Part shown: piece by piece, positions 3,964 to 23,476 of the stretch
Layout: each line of letters begins with the position of its first letter
Numbering within the stretch: the first letter of the stretch is position 1
Assembly (NCBI GenBank): GCA_016933955.1
Contig: JAFGTT010000036.1
Coordinates: 124,001-188,000 of the forward strand
Direction of reading: 5' to 3'
DNA: 64,000 nucleotides
From: Candidatus Zixiibacteriota bacterium
GTDB lineage: Bacteria > Zixibacteria > MSB-5A5 > GN15 > PGXB01
The notes under the pieces: model-generated
The model's input: the letters and a program-made list of their open reading frames with translations, nothing else
What the model was told of the DNA's origin: nothing
Databases searched by the model: none
Position numbers and translations under genes: made by a program

Positions 3964-4255
3964 CATGTTTTGGTCTGATTTGAGGGATAATGTTAGAAAG
4001 AGCCAATAGAATATAGATATATTTATCTAAATATAAATTACTGCAATCGATCCTAACAACAACAAATAAAGTCTTTAAATATATACCGATAACAGGATGT
4101 AATCAGTATTGAATATTACATTTTCTATTGACATAATATTATTATTGACTTTCTTATAGTTAAACGAATTAAATCGATCGGACACTATATATAGTGATAC
4201 GGATACATCAGAGTTACTTGCCTACAATTAATTAAATCAGATAAAGGGTTTATTT
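3964..4255 (+). other. AT-rich leader of the T9SS exoprotein gene
   Basis: Strongly AT-rich compared with the flanks. It holds a perfect 14-bp palindrome CACTATATATAGTG (4183-4196), about 60 bases before the start codon, which could be an operator. TTGACA at about 4131 and TTGACT at about 4146 are possible -35 boxes but have no convincing -10 partner. The ribosome binding site before ATG 4256 is weak (AAAGGG). The base composition suggests this unit was acquired. Confidence 0.4.
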
Positions 4256-7200
4256 ATGAATAAGGTGCTATTTTATTCAACATTGTTATTGCTTTTTTTA
4301 TTAATGGCGTCTCAATCCTACGCTTTGGTTTATCTGAATCGAAGACTTATAGAATGTGAGCCGTTGACCTATGTCGTCGAACCTATTGAATTAATCGGCG
4401 AGGGAATGACAATCAGCCGGGATACTCACAACGAATACGGCGATTGCGTGGGCGATTCTCCCGGGCCGCCTTTTATTATTGAAATGCCGATCATGATCAG
4501 TAATGAATATAATGATGATGGTTCCGTCCTCAATTATGGCTCCTTTACCATTAACAACAGCTATATAAAAGCCGACGATGGTGATAAGAACCCCGATGAG
4601 GCTTTTGTTCTCGTTTTTCAAAGCGGGGGTTTAAGTGGAACAGTCGCGATTTCCAATGATGGCGGCCTATTGACGTGTAAAGGCAAAGCGGGCGATCCGA
4701 TCATTTTTGGCGGGTGCTACCGCATTGCCTCAAGCTCGGATTACAGCGGTGAATTAGAAGATTATTCCAATACCTTTCTGCACTGCAATTTTACCGGACG
4801 TGATGACATTTGCACGGGCGGGACCACGGCGCTTGATTTCTTAGGCGGTAATACCACGTTTGAAAATTGTAATTTTAAATATTTTGACGGTGGAGAAAAT
4901 TATTGTCTGTTTTATCAGGGAAACAAAGACCTGTCTATTAAAAATTGTCTCTTCAGCTCCAGCCATTTTTATAATAAGGCGCCGATAGAGATACTTGGAG
5001 TTCGAGCGCTTGAATTGGAAAGTATTCATTTTAATAGCATTGGTATCGTTGAACCATCCCTTAATCCCGGTTTAATCTATTGTCCGGCCAGCGCTATCAT
5101 TAATAGAAGTATTAAAAATATATCCGCTTCAAATTGTCGCCTGCCATTTTTGCGATTTGGACACCTGTATGTCTATGATTCGGCCTATATCCAGTCAGAT
5201 ATTCCGATTTTAAATTCGGGGGGGACGAATATCGACAGCGGCGGAGTTCTTGTAATTGATAAGGGGACTGTCTTTCAAATGTATGACAATACAATTAGTG
5301 GAACCATAAAATGCGATTACGGTCGCCTGATTGTTGATAGCGCCGTTCTAACCGGTATTAATGATCGCGATTATGGTTATCAGATGAGTAACTCCGGTTA
5401 TAAGTATCCGACATGGTATGGCATCTATGCGTCTGACAGCGGCTCGGTGAATATCAAAAACAGCCGACTTCGTCTGGCCCAAAAACCGATTAACATTGAA
5501 GGCCCGCTTTTCATTGATAGTTGTATATTTGAAAATAATGTAGGGTATGCGATAAATATTGTGGCACAAAACGGTCGAGAGCAGATAATCCAGAATTCAT
5601 ATATCAGTGGATGTGATTATGGCAACGGTATTACTTATCAAATAAGCCGTGAAGATGAAACCCCGCAAAGATTCACCGTGAGCAATATGGATATTGTCAA
5701 CTGCTCTGGTTTGGGTCTTAATATTGATGACAATATGTACCATCCTAAACCGATAGATATTTTTATTGAAAATTGTAAATTCGGTTCGGCCCCCGTGACT
5801 ATCGAATTAATGCCGCTTCTCGATACCCTGTCTATCAAAGGATGTTATATTGCCGCCAGCAGTGGAGCCGCGTTAGCATTGGGCGATAAAAACGGCGACA
5901 GTAGTACCATACTTTTGGAAAGTAATATTTTTGCCGGGGGAGGAGAATCGGTGAATCAGATCTTCGTGCATGTCCGGACCGGCAAGATGGATTTTATCAA
6001 TAACAGCATTCTCTTTTGTAAGGGGTTCGGCCTATATAATTCTTCTACGGTAGATTATACGGAGAAGGTTTATAATAATCTGTTTGCCCATAACGGCAAT
6101 AGTGGCTACAAGCAAGTATCGGACAATGGCGATCAGCTGGTTGCCTATAATAATTTCTATGATAACGATATTGATGGAGACGAGGATGTCTATCTGCCAA
6201 CCCCGACCGGGACGATTTATACCTTTGAAGAATTAATCGGTCTTGGCGGCATTGCGGCCACCAATAAAAATTATGATCCGGTCTTTATCCCGGCCGATAC
6301 CGGTGTTATTAGTTTTATCAACTATGACAGTATTAAGGCTATTTCCGCCCTGTCAGTACAGAATTTCAATCTTAAAGGTCGTTCCTATAAGGACCGTCTG
6401 ATAAGGCCGAATATCTACGATACGGTTTGGTATTTTATACTGGATAATACCGATGATACCCTTTATGTGGCCGGACAGGTTCGTGATGTTGCCACTTCAT
6501 TCGATACTTTTCTCGTTGTCGACCCGCACCTGTCGTTCACCTCGCCGTTGGTAGATTCCGGTTATAATGATATTGTTACCTCCGCATATGATTTTGAAAG
6601 AGACGAGCGGATTATCGATGCCGATGAGAACGGAACCGCTTCGGTCGATATCGGGGGCGATGAATATAAAGCCGGAACGGTCGGCGGCAACGGAGCGATA
6701 ATCGTTTTTGCTCCGCGCGAGGACAGTCTCTTTCGCCCCGGCGAGACGGTCGATATCACCTGGCTGGCTCAGGAAGTCGATTATGTTCATATCATGTATG
6801 CACTTGATTATAACGGCTATGTCTCCTCCGACTGGCACGAAATCGAGTTGATGTTCGATCCCGATTCGGGACATTGCCAGTGGGAGGTCCCGGATACTAT
6901 TTCATACCGATGTCGAATACTGGTCCAGGATGCCGCCCATAGCGATATCTTTGGAGAGAGTGGGGTCTTCCATATCAAACCAAGGGTATTGACCAGAGTC
7001 CTGCCCGATAGTACCTATGAACGATTTCGGATAACAGAGGATAACTGGCAATTTGCCAATACTATTGCCAATATGTGGCCGTTTAGCTGGTACACTCAGT
7101 TTGATTACACAGTCCTTGATGTTTATACCGGAGAGAATTTCCCGGCCTATTTTATTCATCCTCCCATTGATGCCTATTCCTCCGATTTTCCAAACTGGGG

Positions 7201-8902
7201 TCTGTTTGTCGGTACTTTCGGAACCGACCAATGCTATATGTATATTGACGGCAAATATTTATATCGTCAACGTGCCCTGGAATACTGGATGAATATAAAG
7301 GGTAGCTGGGGCGGGTCCTGCTACGGTCTCTCCAACAGCGCCATGATGGCTTTCGGCGATTCGGCCGTCTTTAAAAATCAATATCCCGCTGTTGGTGCCT
7401 TTACCGATCTTTATCCGGTCACGATGAATGATGACCGACGAGTGACCATAAACCGATTCATGGTTTCTCAATTCGGAAAGGAACGCATTACTCATGCCAC
7501 AACGGCTCAATCGACACCTCTGCCGACTTTGATCCGACAACTTTCGGATATCTTGGGCAATAATAAATCACTCGGCGACCTCAATACTTTGACCATTTGT
7601 GATCTGGATCATCCTGACCAGAATCGTCGCGGTTGCCATAATGTGGTGCCATACAAGCTCGAAAAACATATTTCGGACCCGGACAAATTCTGGATTTATG
7701 TCTATGACTGCAATATCCCGACCGATTCAACCACCAGGATTCTGGCCGATACCGCCTTGAATTTCTGGACCTATGATTCCCTCAATTGGGACAGCTACAT
7801 GAAAATCTGGGTCGAACAACCCCTTAGTTCCTTTTTAAACAGACCGACCATTCCGGGGATAGAGGGAGGCGATAAAAATAAGGCCTCGACAGATTTTTAT
7901 TTATTTTATTCTCAAGCCGATTCGCTTCGTTTGGAATCGCCGGATTTGGGGCACTATTATACTCTCGCCGATTCGGTTGACGATTCCCTGATAAACGGAA
8001 TGCCCTTGATTTTCAATGATAAATTGGGCGCTCCGCCTTATGGCTTTTATTTGCCTAACGGCGAATGGGACTGCCGATTAACCGGGGCCCAGGGAGGGTT
8101 GGCACGAATATCGTTAATGTCGGATAAAGGTTTTATGACTTATTACCGTTTGGGTATTGCCCTTGACGAGTCCGAACGGATTGTCTATCCCGGCGATGAT
8201 TCAACCTTGTGGATAATGAACGGGACCGACATCGAACGGACCTTTGGCGTCAGGATGTGCTATTATGAGGATGGGGGTGAGTATCTGATGCAGTGCCAAG
8301 ATATTGAAACTTCAGCCAATGATTCCTCCTGTTTCAAATTTATTCACCAGTTTGGTTTTTTGATTGAAAATCATGGCAGTGCATCTGATTATATTCTAAA
8401 ACTGAATAAACTGGATACCCTGTATAACCTTGAATTTGTTGACTCCACAGCACATATTGACGGCCATACGGCTCATTATATTTATCCGGAATGGAGCAAA
8501 GATTATATTAATGAAATTAAAATATATATAGATACCGATATCGATGGCTCTATTGACGATTCCCTGATTGTCAGCAATGATATTCTTCTGGATGTCAATG
8601 ATGATTCGGGCGGGCTGCTTCCTGCGACCTTTAATATCAGCCAGAATTATCCAAATCCGTTTAATCCGCAGACGAATATTGAGTATTCTCTTCCCACTCG
8701 TTCTCAGGTCAATATTGATATTTATAATATTCTGGGCCAAAAGGTACGGACGCTGGTGGATAAAAGCCAGCCGGCCGGAGAATACCGGATTATCTGGGAC
8801 AGTAATGATGATAGTGGCATAAAAGTCTCAACCGGAATTTATTTCTATCGTTTCCAGGCCGGAGAATATGTAGAGACAAAAAAGATGCTATTGATAAAAT
8901 AG
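4256..8902 (+). CDS. T9SS-sorted giant protein: beta-helix, Ig-like, papain-like protease-like module
   Basis: A 1548-residue exported protein. An N-terminal signal peptide (hydrophobic core about 4-22) precedes a long region rich in short Asn/Ile/Phe repeats typical of right-handed parallel beta-helices (about 60-650). A stretch at about 805-890 resembles an Ig-like extracellular domain. Residues about 920-1175 contain GSWGGSCYGLS (Cys1022), CHNVVPYKLE (His1128) and YVYDCN (Asp1151, Asn1153), an order and spacing that fit a papain/C39-like cysteine peptidase. About 1461-1548 is a T9SS type A sorting domain (NYPNPFNP, YNILGQKVRTL, final KKMLLIK), which marks the protein for outer-membrane passage and surface anchoring or release. 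The substrate is unknown. AT-rich codon use and flanking tRNA-derived repeats suggest acquisition. The protease call is inference from motifs only. Confidence 0.85.
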   Translation: MNKVLFYSTLLLLFLLMASQSYALVYLNRRLIECEPLTYVVEPIELIGEGMTISRDTHNEYGDCVGDSPGPPFIIEMPIMISNEYNDDGSVLNYGSFTINNSYIKADDGDKNPDEAFVLVFQSGGLSGTVAISNDGGLLTCKGKAGDPIIFGGCYRIASSSDYSGELEDYSNTFLHCNFTGRDDICTGGTTALDFLGGNTTFENCNFKYFDGGENYCLFYQGNKDLSIKNCLFSSSHFYNKAPIEILGVRALELESIHFNSIGIVEPSLNPGLIYCPASAIINRSIKNISASNCRLPFLRFGHLYVYDSAYIQSDIPILNSGGTNIDSGGVLVIDKGTVFQMYDNTISGTIKCDYGRLIVDSAVLTGINDRDYGYQMSNSGYKYPTWYGIYASDSGSVNIKNSRLRLAQKPINIEGPLFIDSCIFENNVGYAINIVAQNGREQIIQNSYISGCDYGNGITYQISREDETPQRFTVSNMDIVNCSGLGLNIDDNMYHPKPIDIFIENCKFGSAPVTIELMPLLDTLSIKGCYIAASSGAALALGDKNGDSSTILLESNIFAGGGESVNQIFVHVRTGKMDFINNSILFCKGFGLYNSSTVDYTEKVYNNLFAHNGNSGYKQVSDNGDQLVAYNNFYDNDIDGDEDVYLPTPTGTIYTFEELIGLGGIAATNKNYDPVFIPADTGVISFINYDSIKAISALSVQNFNLKGRSYKDRLIRPNIYDTVWYFILDNTDDTLYVAGQVRDVATSFDTFLVVDPHLSFTSPLVDSGYNDIVTSAYDFERDERIIDADENGTASVDIGGDEYKAGTVGGNGAIIVFAPREDSLFRPGETVDITWLAQEVDYVHIMYALDYNGYVSSDWHEIELMFDPDSGHCQWEVPDTISYRCRILVQDAAHSDIFGESGVFHIKPRVLTRVLPDSTYERFRITEDNWQFANTIANMWPFSWYTQFDYTVLDVYTGENFPAYFIHPPIDAYSSDFPNWGLFVGTFGTDQCYMYIDGKYLYRQRALEYWMNIKGSWGGSCYGLSNSAMMAFGDSAVFKNQYPAVGAFTDLYPVTMNDDRRVTINRFMVSQFGKERITHATTAQSTPLPTLIRQLSDILGNNKSLGDLNTLTICDLDHPDQNRRGCHNVVPYKLEKHISDPDKFWIYVYDCNIPTDSTTRILADTALNFWTYDSLNWDSYMKIWVEQPLSSFLNRPTIPGIEGGDKNKASTDFYLFYSQADSLRLESPDLGHYYTLADSVDDSLINGMPLIFNDKLGAPPYGFYLPNGEWDCRLTGAQGGLARISLMSDKGFMTYYRLGIALDESERIVYPGDDSTLWIMNGTDIERTFGVRMCYYEDGGEYLMQCQDIETSANDSSCFKFIHQFGFLIENHGSASDYILKLNKLDTLYNLEFVDSTAHIDGHTAHYIYPEWSKDYINEIKIYIDTDIDGSIDDSLIVSNDILLDVNDDSGGLLPATFNISQNYPNPFNPQTNIEYSLPTRSQVNIDIYNILGQKVRTLVDKSQPAGEYRIIWDSNDDSGIKVSTGIYFYRFQAGEYVETKKMLLIK

Positions 8903-15686: not shown

Positions 15687-17378
<1,692 letters not shown>

Positions 17379-17391
17379 TTATTTAAATGAA

Positions 17392-18132
17392 TTACGAAAA
17401 ATACCTCTCAACTCCCTTTAAGTCTTCAGGTGTGTCTATCGAATATAATTTGTTTTTTATTTTAAAAATCTTAATCTTTTCGCGATTTTCGAGTATCCTG
17501 AGCTGTTCTAATGATTCCGCCTTTTCCATCGGGGTTTGTTTCCAGGCGGTAAACCGTTTCAAACCGGTCTTTCTAAAAAAATATACTCCAATATGATAGT
17601 AATATTTGAAATGTTTCAGACGGCTGCCTTTGACGCCCTGAAGAAACGGCAGAGGATACCGGGAGAACCAGAGAGCATAATCATCAGGATCCATAATCAT
17701 CTTAACCCGGTTAGGATCATAAAGACACTCATCGCTTTCGACCGCCCGTGCGAGGGTGGCGAAATTCATTCTTTTATCAGCCAGCATGGCTTTTAGGACT
17801 CGATCGTAAACGGCCGCTTTGACGCCAAGAACATCGGCCTGGATGTTCAAAAATATTTCTCCCCCGGTTTTACCGGCCATCTCGGCGGTCCGGTCGGACC
17901 CGGTCCGGTGGGATCGGGAGGTCATGAACGCTTCTCCGCCGAATCCTTGAACCGCTTTGGCTATCAACGTGGTATCGGTGGCCACTACCACCCGGTCGAT
18001 CAACCGGGCCCGCGAGGCCTCCCGGTAAAGGTGCTCAATCAGAGGTTTTCCGGCTATCGGGGCCAGCGGTTTGCCGGGAAAACGTCTTGACCCCAGACGG
18101 GCGGGAATAACGGCTACTATCTGCGATTTCAT
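17392..18132 (-). CDS. kdsB: 3-deoxy-manno-octulosonate cytidylyltransferase (CMP-Kdo synthetase)
   Basis: Activates Kdo with CTP for LPS inner-core assembly in the cytoplasm. At 246 residues it has the normal length, with the N-terminal nucleotide-binding motif IPARLGSRRFPGKPL and later elements such as YDPNRVK and IDTPEDL. The Mg-binding segment, usually QGDEP, reads QADVLG here: the metal-binding Asp is kept, while Gly and Glu-Pro are lost. It stands first in an operon with pyrG, or second if the small ORF just upstream is real. The ATG begins 1 base after the stop of that ORF. Confidence 0.95.
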   Translation of the reverse strand: MKSQIVAVIPARLGSRRFPGKPLAPIAGKPLIEHLYREASRARLIDRVVVATDTTLIAKAVQGFGGEAFMTSRSHRTGSDRTAEMAGKTGGEIFLNIQADVLGVKAAVYDRVLKAMLADKRMNFATLARAVESDECLYDPNRVKMIMDPDDYALWFSRYPLPFLQGVKGSRLKHFKYYYHIGVYFFRKTGLKRFTAWKQTPMEKAESLEQLRILENREKIKIFKIKNKLYSIDTPEDLKGVERYFS

Positions 18133-18133
18133 A

Positions 18134-18310
18134 TCAGTTAAAACCCCCGGTCATGACAAAATATTCCCCATCGGTCCCTGCCCAACCGGAATGACTGATA
18201 TCATTGCAAATCCGTATCGTTTCCGGAGACAACTTTCCCATTTTTACGGGGACTGAATCCAGACCTGCCGGCCCGGACAGACGGCGAATTTCATCCTTTG
18301 AAACAGGCAC
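18134..18310 (-). CDS. possible leaderless small ORF upstream of kdsB
   Basis: A 58-residue GTG-started frame (begins MPVSKDEIRRLSG, ends YFVMTGGFN) stops 1 base before the kdsB ATG. No ribosome binding site precedes the GTG. A consensus promoter has its -10 box ending 5 bases upstream, so the expected transcript start falls at or next to the GTG, as in leaderless genes. The sequence is hydrophilic with balanced composition and looks protein-like, but I recognise no family. It may instead be the untranslated or translationally coupled leader of kdsB. Confidence 0.4.
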   Translation of the reverse strand: MPVSKDEIRRLSGPAGLDSVPVKMGKLSPETIRICNDISHSGWAGTDGEYFVMTGGFN

Positions 18311-18315
18311 AAGTG

Positions 18316-18344
18316 AAAATAGGCGCCGCGACCACGGCTGTCAA
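18316..18344 (-). promoter_or_regulatory. promoter of the kdsB-pyrG operon
   Basis: Minus strand TTGACA (18339-18344) and TATTTT (18316-18321) with the ideal 17-bp spacing. It points to a transcript start near 18309, at the GTG of the small ORF. Confidence 0.75.
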
Positions 18345-18457
18345 GTTTAAAAAAATTCCGGGGAATCGCTATTTATGGTTTCGGCCGGCCGGGTAAAGCT
18401 TCGGAATCCTGAACCGATAAAAATAATAGATGTATCAAATTGAAACAGGACTGAGGA

Positions 18458-19930
18458 ATGGATACCATAATTTCAAGATTCCATGAATTCACTCCGGTCG
18501 TAGCACAACAACCGGATAACCAAATCCCGGATCATGAACGACTTTTCTCACTGGCGGTCGATATTTACATGGGTCGATCTCTATCGCCTGAAGATATAGA
18601 CGCGATTGAAAGAACCACCCCGCCCAACAGTCTTTTTTTTCTTCTGGCGGGCAACAAATATATTCATCCGGAAGGCGTGCAACTGGTCAGTCCGGAATTC
18701 ATCCGGCAGACTATCAGCAATGATCCGTCATGCCTGTTTTATCGCCAGATTGCGGCGGGGCATGGTCCGTCAGGATCAGACGGCCGGGTATGCGCCGCCC
18801 GCCTGGGCCGGGACCGATTCGGCGAAGAAATTTCAGCCGGAGTAATTATCAGGCAAAACTGGCGGCAACGGGATTATGACAGCGAGATTTTTTATCAGAC
18901 GATCGGATTGCTGAGAAGATTCTACGATGAATTTAGTGCCTCCGGGGCGATTCAGAAATTTCTCGACGACAATTCTTCTTACCGCTACGCCATCCGGTCC
19001 GATTCACGGAAAATTATCAAGTCTTTGCCCCCGACCGAGGCCGACCGGCAGTCGGATATGGAACTGACTGTCGACCGATTGAATTCGCTGGTGCTTTCCG
19101 AACTTCCTAATCTTGGTATGATTCCCGATGATAAAATCATTCCCGATAACCGGATAAAAAATCTCGATATAAAAAATTGCACTATCCTCGATACCGCTTT
19201 CACCCTGATATCGGTTGCCATGAAAATTGCCCGAATGGAAACCCACGGCCCTCATGACACGTTGATTCAGGGATTCTCTCAAACCCTGAGCAACCGGCTG
19301 GAAATAATCGAAAGGGCGATCGGTAATTTGAACAATCGGCCGGGAATATCTTTCAATCAGGAAGACCTGGAATTGATGAATCGAATCCATGGGGCCGCCG
19401 AAGAAATCGGGCGGCTGGCCAGATGGATAGAACTTTATAACGGTGGAACGGTGGCGGGAATATCGGCGGTTGATTTTAATCAACTGATGTGCCGAAAGAC
19501 TGCAGAATTTACCAAGATGAGGGCGCCGGGATGCCGGATCAAGATGGAATTGACCGATGACCCGCCCGGTATAAAAACCGATCCGGATCTGGTCAATCTG
19601 GCAATGAATGAAATCCTCGAGACCCTGCTTTCATTCGGGGCCGGGGAAGTCAATATCCAGTCAGAGGTTTCCGGTGAATCCATGGAAATTCATATCAACT
19701 GCCGTATCTGTCCCGAATTATTACCGAATCGAAGCGATCTTACGGGCGAAATCGAACAGACATTTGAAAAATCCGGTTCGGTCGGCGACCGTCCGGGCCT
19801 GTTAATCGCCGGGCGGGTGGTTGAAACGTACGGCGGGCGGCTGGTCATCAATCATGACAATGGTGAATTTCGGGCCTGCCTGACCCTGCCCGCATCATTT
19901 ACAGGGAGTCATATATATACCAATGCATAG
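18458..19930 (+). CDS. histidine-kinase-like protein with a non-canonical H-box
   Basis: A 490-residue soluble protein with an unrecognised N-terminal half (about 1-255) and a C-terminal kinase-like half. The dimerisation helix (GFSQTLSNRLEII, about 272-284) matches the NtrB-type GxxHExxNPLxxI pattern but has Gln275 in place of the phosphorylated His. A His-Asp pair (266-267) nine residues earlier is the only nearby candidate. A GHKL ATPase-like region follows (about 370-480), with a recognisable N-box (MNEILETLLSFGAGEVNI) and a G-region (GLLIAGRVVETYGG). The gene overlaps the next regulator by 8 bases, so they act together. The ribosome binding site (GAGGA) is unusually close to the ATG. It could be a pseudokinase that scaffolds or senses. 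Confidence 0.7.
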   Translation: MDTIISRFHEFTPVVAQQPDNQIPDHERLFSLAVDIYMGRSLSPEDIDAIERTTPPNSLFFLLAGNKYIHPEGVQLVSPEFIRQTISNDPSCLFYRQIAAGHGPSGSDGRVCAARLGRDRFGEEISAGVIIRQNWRQRDYDSEIFYQTIGLLRRFYDEFSASGAIQKFLDDNSSYRYAIRSDSRKIIKSLPPTEADRQSDMELTVDRLNSLVLSELPNLGMIPDDKIIPDNRIKNLDIKNCTILDTAFTLISVAMKIARMETHGPHDTLIQGFSQTLSNRLEIIERAIGNLNNRPGISFNQEDLELMNRIHGAAEEIGRLARWIELYNGGTVAGISAVDFNQLMCRKTAEFTKMRAPGCRIKMELTDDPPGIKTDPDLVNLAMNEILETLLSFGAGEVNIQSEVSGESMEIHINCRICPELLPNRSDLTGEIEQTFEKSGSVGDRPGLLIAGRVVETYGGRLVINHDNGEFRACLTLPASFTGSHIYTNA

Positions 19931-21299
19931 AGCCTCCGACAAATCCGCCCGCATCCTGCTAGTCGATAACGACGCCGATATAAGAATCTCGGTTGAGAAA
20001 CTTTTGAGACAGAGTGATTATGAAGTTATCTCTGCCGGGCGGTGTCATGAGGCAATTAAAATCATAAACTCCGGGGGAATCGACCTGATCATCACCGATC
20101 TGCATCTGCCCGACGGAAGCGGTTTGGATATTATCACTCGCGCACGGGAGTACGGACGGGAAACGGCGGTGATTATCCAGACCAGACACGGCTCAATCGA
20201 TGAGGCGCTGGAGACATTGAAAAAGGGAGCCTGTCATTACCTGACCAAGCCGGCGCATGATGAGGAACTGCTCCATTTAATCGAGAAGGCTCTGGAATAC
20301 CGGGATATTCGTGAAGAGCTGTATTCTTTGCGGGAAGAAGTCGCCTGGAGGCACAGTTTTGACAGCCTGATCGGCGTATCCCGGGCAATGGAGCAAATTA
20401 AAATACTGGCGGCGCGGGTGGCGGCCACCGACCTGACGGTACTGATTACCGGGGAACCGGGAACGGGTCGGGAGTTGCTGGCCCGAACCATTCATTATCA
20501 TTCCGCCCGCCGACGACGGGGCTTTGTCGCCATTGATGGAACCATTCTTTCCCAATATTTACCGGATTTAATCGGAATCAGCCGCACAACAGCCGATAAA
20601 GTAGTCCCCGAACCGGGTGATTTAATAAACAAAGCCCATGGCGGAACGCTTTTCATAGATGAAATCGGGGAGTTATCAATGGAATTCCAGAATAGCCTTA
20701 TGGATATTCTCCGGACATCGAAAGAAGCGGACGGTTCACCCGGGCCAAATATCCGTCTTCTCGGTTCCACCGCCAGGGATCTCGGGGTTATGGTGCGAGA
20801 GGGTCAATTCCGCGAGGATCTTTATTACAGGATAAACACTCTGCCGATCAAGATTCCGCCTCTTCGGGAACGGCCCGAAGATATCCCCGTCCTGGTCGAT
20901 CATTTTCTGAAATCAGCCGATGATGCCGGACGGGTGGCAATGACCCCGGAAGCCATGGGGAAAATTTTGCACTATGACTGGCCGGGGAATATCCGCGAGC
21001 TGGAAAACACCATCGGCCGGGCGATAGCACTCTGCCGAAACCGTCAGATCGAACCGGATGATATCATTTTCATCAATTCCCGGACAACCCCGGAAACCGC
21101 CCGGGCCGGTGAAAACCGGGTCTCCATCGCGGCCGGGACACTGGAGGACAGCCTTAAGGAACGGATCGAGGCGACTCTCAGCGCCAATAACTGGAACCTG
21201 ACCCGGACAGCCGTACACCTTGGGATCGGCCGGACGACGCTCTGGCGAAAAATCAGAAAGTACAACATCAGGAAAAATAAAGAGGTTCCGGCGGGGTAA
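19923..21299 (+). CDS. NtrC-type response regulator without GAFTGA motif
   Basis: A 458-residue protein with a receiver domain (about 9-125), an AAA+ domain (about 148-375) and a C-terminal Fis-type helix-turn-helix (about 410-450). The receiver is intact: Asp15/Asp17, phosphoacceptor Asp59, Thr87 and Lys109. The AAA+ domain keeps Walker B (GGTLFIDEIGE) and the arginine-finger segment (FREDLYYRINTL). Its Walker A is GEPGTGRE, with Arg183 in the Lys position. The loop that should carry GAFTGA reads LIGISRTTADK and is about two residues shorter. Since GAFTGA contacts sigma54, this protein probably does not open sigma54 promoters. It may work as a DNA-binding repressor or sigma70 regulator. It overlaps the kinase-like gene. 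Confidence 0.9.
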   Translation: MHRASDKSARILLVDNDADIRISVEKLLRQSDYEVISAGRCHEAIKIINSGGIDLIITDLHLPDGSGLDIITRAREYGRETAVIIQTRHGSIDEALETLKKGACHYLTKPAHDEELLHLIEKALEYRDIREELYSLREEVAWRHSFDSLIGVSRAMEQIKILAARVAATDLTVLITGEPGTGRELLARTIHYHSARRRRGFVAIDGTILSQYLPDLIGISRTTADKVVPEPGDLINKAHGGTLFIDEIGELSMEFQNSLMDILRTSKEADGSPGPNIRLLGSTARDLGVMVREGQFREDLYYRINTLPIKIPPLRERPEDIPVLVDHFLKSADDAGRVAMTPEAMGKILHYDWPGNIRELENTIGRAIALCRNRQIEPDDIIFINSRTTPETARAGENRVSIAAGTLEDSLKERIEATLSANNWNLTRTAVHLGIGRTTLWRKIRKYNIRKNKEVPAG

Positions 21300-21334
21300 T
21301 CGAACCGCCATTTAATGTTAAAAAGGGGCAGGCA

Positions 21335-21916
21335 GTGAACAAGAGCACAATATTATCCGGATCGAATGAAGCGACCCGTATCGTCGGGAAAAAACTGAGC
21401 GGGTCCGGTCATCGGCTGGCCCGGATATTTTCCCGATGTTTCAGTTCCGTTTTTAAAAACAGGAAAAATATTTACGACCTGTTTTTCTCTCTGACCAAAA
21501 AGCTGAATAAGTTCTTCTCCATATCGCATGCCATCCTGATAATCCATTCCGAACATGATGACCGCCTCAAGGTTATCGCCATGAAAGGGAAAAAACGCAC
21601 TCACCTGGGCCTGGCTTTGACTCTCCCCCGACAGGATTCATTGCTGTACTCCATTTTCAGCCGCGGAATAATTTACACCCGCAATTTTCCCGTCGAGGTG
21701 GAATGTAATTTCGTGGAGAAAAAACTGCTTTTTCAGGAAAGCACCAATTCCATCGCCGTCTGCCCGATCACCTCCGATGGTTCGGTCCGGGGATTAATCT
21801 GTCTGGCATCTCCGATCCTGTATGCTTTTTCGATGTTCGAGGATGGAATTCTGGATGGTATCCTTGAGGAATTCGGTCTATCCCTCAGCCGGGAACTTGA
21901 TCGCTATCTTATCTAA
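21335..21916 (+). CDS. GAF-like sensory domain protein
   Basis: A 193-residue soluble protein. The core from about 40 to 190 has the layout of a GAF domain: an N-terminal helix (FFSLTKKLNKFF), strands, and a final SIAVCPITSDGSVRGLICL / FEDGILDGILEEFGLSLSREL pattern. No output domain is attached. It starts with GTG after AAAGGGGCAGG and lies 35 bases after the NtrC-type regulator, in the same direction. A role as ligand sensor for the upstream pair is an inference from position. The N-terminal 40 residues are basic and of unknown function. Confidence 0.65.
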   Translation: MNKSTILSGSNEATRIVGKKLSGSGHRLARIFSRCFSSVFKNRKNIYDLFFSLTKKLNKFFSISHAILIIHSEHDDRLKVIAMKGKKRTHLGLALTLPRQDSLLYSIFSRGIIYTRNFPVEVECNFVEKKLLFQESTNSIAVCPITSDGSVRGLICLASPILYAFSMFEDGILDGILEEFGLSLSRELDRYLI

Positions 21917-23067
21917 GTACTTTTATTCCCGCTTTTTCTGGCCTTCTTAATCCGATATTTGGCCCGATTGTGTTCATTGAGGGTGGTGGAAAAAACATGC
22001 CCGCCGCTGCCATCGGCCACGAAATAAAGGAAATCGGTTTGTTCGGGATTAAGGGCGGCGCGAATAGCGGCCAGGCCGGGGGAATTGATCGGTCCCGGCG
22101 GAAGACCTTTGTACTTATAAGTGTTATAAGGTGAATCATACTTCAGGTCGGCATAGTACAGCGGCCGATCCAGCCCACCCAGGGCGTAGATTACGGTCGG
22201 GTCGGCCTGCAGAAGCATTCCGATCCGCAGGCGATTGTGATAAACCGAGGAGATCTTCGTTTTTTCCTCATCCAGAACGGCCTCGGCCTCGATAATCGAG
22301 GCCAAAGTCGTTATCTGATTTTTCGAGGCGAGTTTTTCAGGTGGATTGTCGAAGAGCCCGGCGGTCTGACGATTGAACTCGGCCACCATGACCGCAATAA
22401 TATCTTCCGGTTTGATGCCGTACCACAGCCGATAGGTTTCCGGAAACAGATACCCTTCAAGACCATCGGTACCGTATTTATCCCGGGTGTCGGCGGTATC
22501 AAAACAAAGTCCGACAAAGATGGCGGAATCTATCCCCAGGTTGCGACTCAGGATACCGGCGGTTTTATAAACGGTCAACCCTTCCGGAATGGTTACCATC
22601 ACGGTGGCGATATCGCGATGTTTGAGTTTTTTCAGGACGGCGTATTGGGATATTTTCCCGGCGAAATCGTAGCGGCCCGGGGCGAGGACTTTATCCACGC
22701 CGGAGATCACGGCGGCGGTTTTGAAAATAAAGGTTCCTTTGATAATACCGTTATCCTGAAGTTGATTTAATACGTGGACAAAACTGTCGTGTTCTTCGAT
22801 GGTGATCGAGCGCCTTTCGGCGCCGATGTCGTAGGGATAAAAGATCTCGAAGGCGGTAAATCCGGCGGCCAGGACAGCCAGGACCAGGACGAATCCGAGC
22901 AGGTTCTTTATCGATTTCAATGGTGCTCCGGTTGCTCCCACCAGAAAAACTCCTGTTTTAAAAATCAGAACCGGCAAAGCCAGGATAAAGAGGATAATCG
23001 TAACCAGCCAGTACAGAAAATATTCATGCAGTCCGGTTTTAACCTTTTTCCGGTCGGGGCTGTTCAT
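21913..23067 (-). CDS. mltG: endolytic murein transglycosylase MltG
   Basis: A 384-residue inner-membrane protein of the YceG/MltG family, which cuts nascent glycan strands and limits their length. A cytoplasmic N-terminus and one membrane helix (about 45-65) precede a LysM-like part and the catalytic domain. The active-site glutamate lies in ASIIEAEA, followed by the conserved SSVYHNRLRIGMLLQADPT and GLPPGPINSPG. Its start overlaps the end of ruvX by 29 bases, giving a ruvX-mltG operon, a widespread pairing. Its end overlaps the convergent GAF-like gene by 4 bases. Confidence 0.96.
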   Translation of the reverse strand: MNSPDRKKVKTGLHEYFLYWLVTIILFILALPVLIFKTGVFLVGATGAPLKSIKNLLGFVLVLAVLAAGFTAFEIFYPYDIGAERRSITIEEHDSFVHVLNQLQDNGIIKGTFIFKTAAVISGVDKVLAPGRYDFAGKISQYAVLKKLKHRDIATVMVTIPEGLTVYKTAGILSRNLGIDSAIFVGLCFDTADTRDKYGTDGLEGYLFPETYRLWYGIKPEDIIAVMVAEFNRQTAGLFDNPPEKLASKNQITTLASIIEAEAVLDEEKTKISSVYHNRLRIGMLLQADPTVIYALGGLDRPLYYADLKYDSPYNTYKYKGLPPGPINSPGLAAIRAALNPEQTDFLYFVADGSGGHVFSTTLNEHNRAKYRIKKARKSGNKST

Positions 23068-23476
23068 CCAGAAATCTCTGCAAAATTATCGCCGCCGCCA
23101 GCCGGTCAACGCGCGCTTTATCCCGGCCGATTTTTTTATTATGCCGATGGATTATGTCCCCGGCCTCGGCCGATGAAAAACGCTCATCATAGCGATAAAT
23201 CGGCCCGTGGTAATTTTTCTCCAGCCGGGTGACAAATTCATCGACCATCCGGCATCGCTCCCCCGATTGGCCTCCATCCGGGGAAAGGGGATAACCGACC
23301 ACCACCCCGACTATTTCGAATTCGTTAATATCCGCGACAATCTCCTTGATGGCCTTCTTTATCGATTTAAACGTTATGGTTTTATACGCCGTGGCGATCA
23401 ATCCGGTCGCATCGGACCGGGCCAGGCCGATCCGCCGTTCGCCGTAGTCGATCCCGAGATAGGGTCCATTTGTCAT
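23039..23476 (-). CDS. ruvX: RuvX/YqgF family pre-16S rRNA nuclease
   Basis: A 145-residue protein of the YqgF family (putative Holliday-junction resolvase; processes the 5' end of 16S rRNA in E. coli). The RNase H-like fold signatures are present: YLGIDYGERRIGLARSD with the first catalytic Asp, the YDERFSSAEA segment with a Glu, and a C-terminal Asp in KARVDRLAA. Length is typical. It is the promoter-proximal gene of the operon with mltG. Confidence 0.94.
   Translation of the reverse strand: MTNGPYLGIDYGERRIGLARSDATGLIATAYKTITFKSIKKAIKEIVADINEFEIVGVVVGYPLSPDGGQSGERCRMVDEFVTRLEKNYHGPIYRYDERFSSAEAGDIIHRHNKKIGRDKARVDRLAAAIILQRFLDEQPRPEKG

Follow-up and report, generated by a model that had tools for sequence, protein, structure and literature searches.

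What does a kinase-regulator pair do once the canonical residues of both partners have been replaced? This question is raised by a three-gene operon within a 64,000-nucleotide stretch of DNA from a Candidatus Zixiibacteriota bacterium (contig JAFGTT010000036.1, positions 124,001 to 188,000; hereafter the window). An initial annotation, made from the sequence alone, had described three codirectional genes, the first two of them overlapping. We analyzed these genes, their control region and their orthologues in related genomes.

Operon layout and chromosomal context

Open reading frames were found exactly where the three genes had been placed, with an 8-bp overlap of gene 1 with gene 2. The features of the locus are the following:

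15687..18132, minus strand: pyrG and kdsB, conserved left neighbors
18394..18420, plus strand: sigma28 (FliA)-type promoter TAAA-N15-ACCGATAA, its spacing kept in orthologous promoters
18431..18447, plus strand: 17-bp dyad TGTATCA-AAT-TGAAACA, putative operator, downstream of the -10 element and ahead of the start codon at 18458
18458..19930, plus strand: gene 1, pseudo-histidine kinase (490 aa), with mixed alpha/beta N-terminal regions and DHp-like and CA-like domains
19280..19282, plus strand: Gln275 codon, at the phosphoacceptor His position
19923..21299, plus strand: gene 2, NtrC-type response regulator without the sigma54-contact loop (458 aa)
20469..20471, plus strand: Arg183 codon, replacing the Walker A Lys
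20544..20618, plus strand: remodelled loop-1 region without GAFTGA
21222..21251, plus strand: HTH segment GIGRTTLWRK, identical in every syntenic orthologue
21335..21916, plus strand: gene 3, GAF-fold protein of the operon (193 aa)
21913..23476, minus strand: mltG and yqgF (ruvX), conserved right neighbors

The comparison of gene order in related genomes, proposed in the initial annotation, showed the operon to be syntenic across the Candidatus Zixiibacteriota order, between kdsB/pyrG and mltG/yqgF. Nearly all complete loci follow the arrangement pyrG-kdsB (reverse), kinase-regulator-GAF (forward), mltG-yqgF (reverse); two loci, L054 and L142, were excluded as not orthologous. A short gatC-like frame lies on the minus strand between kdsB and the operon (window ~18133-18320); a gatC-like start is found at the same place in relatives, and the window copy appears short. 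In G010 the regulator is found in two split frames (L043, 7012-7304), possibly as a result of an assembly error.

The kinase-like protein and the GAF protein

The H-box of gene 1 reads GFSQTLSNRL in the window, compared to NFSHDMRNKL in relatives, which confirms the reported Gln (Gln275) in place of the phosphoacceptor His that orthologues of the same family carry. The CA domain is degraded too, the N-box Asn, the G1 box and the G2 box (GxGL) all being missing. Searching with the window kinase alone, we found no significant Pfam or NCBIfam match. A profile of the kinase orthologues matches histidine kinases (ZraS, E 4e-20), and an AlphaFold2 model of gene 1 with modest confidence (pLDDT 68) matches kinase core structures, with the NifL-NifA complex structure 9qq6 among the matches. 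The model suggests, with modest confidence, that the DHp/CA core fold of a histidine kinase has been kept despite the lost catalytic residues. The kinase is the fastest-changing gene of the operon, with 25-31% identity between genera, and it is truncated in some relatives (L050-L052). His266, previously put forward as a source of phosphate, lies outside the H-box and is not conserved among relatives, and was dropped as an alternative site.

Gene 3, which had been called GAF-like, adopts a GAF fold in its AlphaFold2 model (pLDDT 82), with the best Foldseek target at a TM of 0.80 and an E of 7.6e-9. Of 81 genomes searched with a profile of the GAF protein, 72 gave a match; some of these matches are weak and presumably represent other GAF proteins. 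The GAF gene is absent from two orthologous operons, L055 (G042) and L058 (G017).

An NtrC-type regulator without the sigma54-contact loop

Gene 2 combines a Sigma54_activat AAA+ domain with HTH_8. As the initial annotation had stated, its Walker A motif (GEPGTGRE) has Arg183 in the place of the Lys, and its loop-1 region, which reads TILSQYLPDLIGISRTTADKVVPEPG, has no GAFTGA; Walker B is intact (D246-E247). From these motifs, sigma54 activation by the window regulator is very unlikely. The receiver had been described as intact, and it does retain Asp59, Thr87 and Lys109. However, since its acidic pair is D-N (VDND), with N16 standing where relatives have a metal-binding Asp, it is not fully so.

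The HTH segment is invariant, while the receiver, the AAA+ domain and the kinase vary among orthologues. The paralogues that we examined in the same genome have other HTH sequences; GIGRTTLWRK was not found among them, and the loop is intact in nearly all.

Repeated loss of canonical motifs across the order

The orthologues found at the same place range from strongly degenerate to fully canonical, examples of the latter (L056, L140 and L141) having the His, the CA domain, the Asp, the Lys and a G[AS]FT[SN]A loop. The window's sister lineage, L043/L045 (support 1.0), has a canonical loop and Lys, and L045 also has the His and the Asp. At the same syntenic position, a GSFTSA loop accompanies the His and the Lys in most of the window's family, and a Walker Arg occurs elsewhere in only a few distant lineages. 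Gln275 and Arg183 are therefore lineage-specific. The initial annotation had asked whether these two residues and the altered loop are conserved, and had named canonical homologues in the same context as evidence against its reading. The three features are not conserved, many syntenic orthologues have His, Lys and GSFTSA, and such canonical homologues are found even in the sister lineage. Of the proposal that a coordinated loss had rewired the system, the joint loss of canonical chemistry in both partners stands, but the combination of residues is not conserved. The window's altered residues are best read as its own instance of a repeated loss, not as a shared alternative chemistry.

Losses were counted on a tree built from the concatenated proteins PyrG, KdsB, MltG, YqgF and Tig, assuming that lost motifs were never regained. 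Both the sigma54 loop and the kinase His were lost 13 times (8 with nodes below 0.95 support collapsed), and the receiver Asp was lost 10 times (7 after the same collapse), in orthologues with the same HTH and operator. The states of the kinase His and the loop are concordant in 51 of 58 loci (Fisher p 1.8e-8, a value that ignores relatedness). Absence of sigma54 was ruled out as the cause of loop loss, since rpoN is present in 45/45 good genomes. Phosphorylation seems to be dispensable for the system, judging from N16 and from the recurrent loss of the receiver Asp among orthologues of the order.

A sigma28-type promoter with a conserved dyad

The operon carries a TAAA-N15-GCCGATAA promoter in a genome that encodes FliA, and would thus fit membership of the FliA regulon; FliA is present in 80 of 81 genomes. 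The flagellin promoter of the same genome, TAAAGTTTCGCGGTTTTATGCCGAT, belongs to the same sigma28 class, as do those of flagellin genes in several relatives. Among the 65 orthologous promoters with a -10 match, the distance from the start of the -35 element to the start of the -10 element is 20-21 nt in 62, and the dyad starts 17 nt downstream of the -10 start in 49. The earlier proposal of control at sigma70 promoters would fit insofar as the promoter is of a non-sigma54 type, but the element is sigma28-like. Another sigma28-like element lies at window 4067-4092, upstream of a 1548-aa secreted ORF (4256-8902).

Within window 18380-18460, TGTATCAAATTGAAACA is the predicted target of the gene-2 HTH (approximately residues 395-458); its size and inverted-repeat form are usual for sites of the NtrC family. 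When up to 2 mismatches are allowed, 68 of 70 orthologous regions contain the dyad TGTNTCA-N3-TGAAACA (54 of them exact), compared to 19 of 1400 shuffled regions. The 3.38-Mb genome of the window holds a single exact copy, at the operon promoter, and two one-mismatch copies, inside katG and inside a membrane-protein gene; a wide regulon in this genome was therefore rejected. Across the order, the exact composite of promoter and dyad is almost confined to this operon, at essentially one copy per genome. Repression is the usual meaning of a site that lies past the transcription start; activation at the dyad is a less likely alternative.

Putative second sites at fliR and other genes

Matches to TGTGCCA-N3-TGAAACA were considered as extra operators and rejected, because most of them are sigma54 -24/-12 promoters on the opposite strand, mainly that of fliR; these promoters carry TGTTTCA three bases upstream. 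In many relatives, the resulting sequence YGTTTCA-N3-YGGCACA-N4-TTTG is the sigma54 promoter of fliR, with a dyad over the -24 box, and the operon fliR-flhB-flhA-flhF-flhG-fliA lies downstream of it. A reversed-pattern control gave about one tenth as many matches as the fliR-type pattern. Because sigma54 itself dictates part of the right arm, the evidence for the fliR site consists of the left arm and its exact spacing. The fliR promoter is present, and the TGTTTCA-type arm was not found, in the genome of the window and in several others of the same family.

The fliR sigma54 promoter itself is conserved across the order (L177-L185, L194, L196-L223), and TGTTTCA or CGTTTCA lies exactly three bases upstream of its -24 box in most families, these promoters being related by descent. 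In genus g29 (L187-L191), two more sigma54 promoters with the TGTTTCA-N3 arm precede genes of unknown function. In two genera (L276, G017:C34; L277, G048:C247), a sigma28-like element and a near-match dyad, TGTATCG-N3-TGAAAC, precede a DivIVA-like gene, which is likely to be controlled by the regulator as well. In G032/G023 a dyad precedes flagellin; this one may fall in coding sequence.

Selection and decay

In close pairs from degenerate lineages other than the window's, the regulator showed a dN/dS of 0.14-0.33 and the kinase one of 0.22-0.33, and canonical pairs gave 0.04-0.06 for the regulator. The degenerate lineages are under relaxed but still purifying selection.

That the gene set is decaying, an outcome raised in the initial annotation, found no support and was rejected as an explanation. 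Pseudogenization in the window lineage could account for the rapid change of the kinase, its truncation in L050-L052 and the higher dN/dS of degenerate than of canonical pairs, but all three frames are open, the promoter and operator are intact, the HTH is invariant, dN/dS in degenerate pairs lies far below 1 and nearly all genomes retain the operon. We consider it very improbable.

Proposed mechanism and alternatives

We propose, with a probability of roughly 0.55, that the operon encodes a de-enzymed NtrB/NtrC-like pair in which gene 2 acts as a dimeric, dyad-binding autoregulator, most likely a repressor, that is driven by FliA and controlled through contact with the products of genes 1 and 3. 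The ancestor would have been a soluble NtrB/NtrC-like two-component pair, since de-enzymed. The operon would be transcribed from the sigma28 (FliA) promoter, and the gene-2 protein, which would no longer remodel sigma54 polymerase, may sit as a dimer on TGTNTCA-N3-TGAAACA, immediately past the -10 element of the operon's sigma28 promoter, and would most likely repress the operon that encodes it. NifL is a kinase-like protein without kinase function that controls the NtrC-family protein NifA by direct binding; the pseudokinase and the GAF protein would tune gene 2 by direct contact in the same way, not by phosphotransfer. In many relatives, the matching site over the fliR -24 box would link FliA back to the flagellar export operon in a closed loop.

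The steps based on sequence are motif loss, synteny, promoter class, conservation and uniqueness of the dyad, and purifying selection in degenerate relatives; from these we infer that gene 2 binds the dyad and represses, and that genes 1 and 3 control gene 2. Among the options raised initially, control by binding only is the best fit, at a non-sigma54 promoter and with canonical chemistry lost in both partners. The pair is now probably a plain DNA-binding switch tied to flagellar gene control. One caveat is that its own promoter is the only good site in the window genome, and self-regulation alone would make little sense without weaker or lineage-specific targets.

The system might instead be rewired yet still phosphorylated, with another kinase or small phosphodonors acting on Asp59 and nucleotide binding despite Arg183 driving oligomerization at a non-sigma54 promoter. 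The retained Asp59, Thr87, Lys109 and Walker B residues agree with this, as does the continued need for the Asp in the GAFTGA-less NtrC of Caulobacter and Rhodobacter (PMC10274813). The metal-ligand Asp is nonetheless replaced by N16, the receiver Asp was lost ~7-10 times in orthologues with the same HTH and operator, and the cognate kinase has no catalytic residues, so that phosphate from another source, as suggested initially, is conceivable but unlikely. The link between gene 2 and the dyad could also be questioned: it comes from inference, similar sites exist at fliR and at the DivIVA-like gene in two genera, and the dyad might belong to another regulator, such as a flagellar repressor, with gene 2 acting elsewhere. 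The near-universal position of the dyad at the operon, its near single-copy occurrence and the invariant HTH make this quite improbable.

We give only a very slight chance to a still canonical flagellar system, akin to FlrB/FlrC or FleS/FleR, with sigma54 flagellar promoters as the targets that it activates. A soluble kinase, a flagellar operon of the FlhF/FlhG type, the dyad at the fliR sigma54 promoter of relatives and the canonical motifs in part of the orthologues would all suit such a system, but neither the Walker Lys nor GAFTGA is present in the window regulator, the fliR promoter of the window genome lacks the site, and the site of relatives sits on the -24 box, which is not where an enhancer is expected. 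As several relatives keep an apparently working pair together with the same site, the ancestral role may include sigma54 activation. More tentatively than the de-enzymed autoregulator proposed for the window, and with the balance still against it, the operon may be undergoing the same conversion repeatedly in parallel lineages of the order: a phospho-relay sigma54 activator would give way to a non-catalytic repressor complex made up of pseudokinase, GAF protein and NtrC shell. Such a complex would relay feedback from FliA to the sigma28 promoter of the operon itself and, by covering the -24 box, to the sigma54-dependent fliR-fliA operon.

Relation to known systems

Each feature of this arrangement has a counterpart elsewhere. 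NifA is a working sigma54 activator, whereas the window regulator would have lost its sigma54 function and is accompanied by an extra GAF protein. FleQ is not known to have a cognate kinase and, unlike what is predicted for the window regulator, still works with sigma54. It is a flagellar regulator of the NtrC family and acts as a repressor at non-sigma54 promoters as well (PMC5026340). The Caulobacter crescentus NtrC has no GAFTGA, binds and represses the promoter of its own operon and acts at sigma70 promoters (PMC10274813), and the Rhodobacter capsulatus NtrC and Vibrio VpsR are likewise GAFTGA-less NtrC-type proteins at sigma70 promoters. In Caulobacter NtrC, however, the Asp, Walker A and Walker B are kept and needed, and the NtrB kinase works, while here we find a pseudokinase, a Walker Lys changed to Arg and a sigma28-type promoter. 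FlgS/FlgR, FlrB/FlrC and FleS/FleR pair a soluble kinase with an NtrC-type regulator and occur in FlhF/FlhG bacteria that have sigma54 and FliA tiers (PMC7064773). In contrast to these, the operon is not adjacent to flagellar genes and would be sigma28-driven, and the activation residues are missing in the window and most relatives. Helicobacter HP1043 is a response regulator with a degenerate receiver that works without phosphorylation (PMC8345958), but it belongs to the OmpR family and is an orphan with no pseudokinase partner.

GAFTGA-less NtrC proteins and pseudokinases were already known, each singly. To our knowledge, the literature searched does not describe an orthologous pair whose two partners have lost function jointly and repeatedly while the operator stayed fixed. 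The window and L045, as well as L052 and L042, offer natural before-and-after pairs for the change from an activator that uses ATP and phosphate to what would be a plain DNA-binding regulator, and the operon would provide, for flagellar control in this uncultured phylum, a first regulatory circuit whose operators are predicted.
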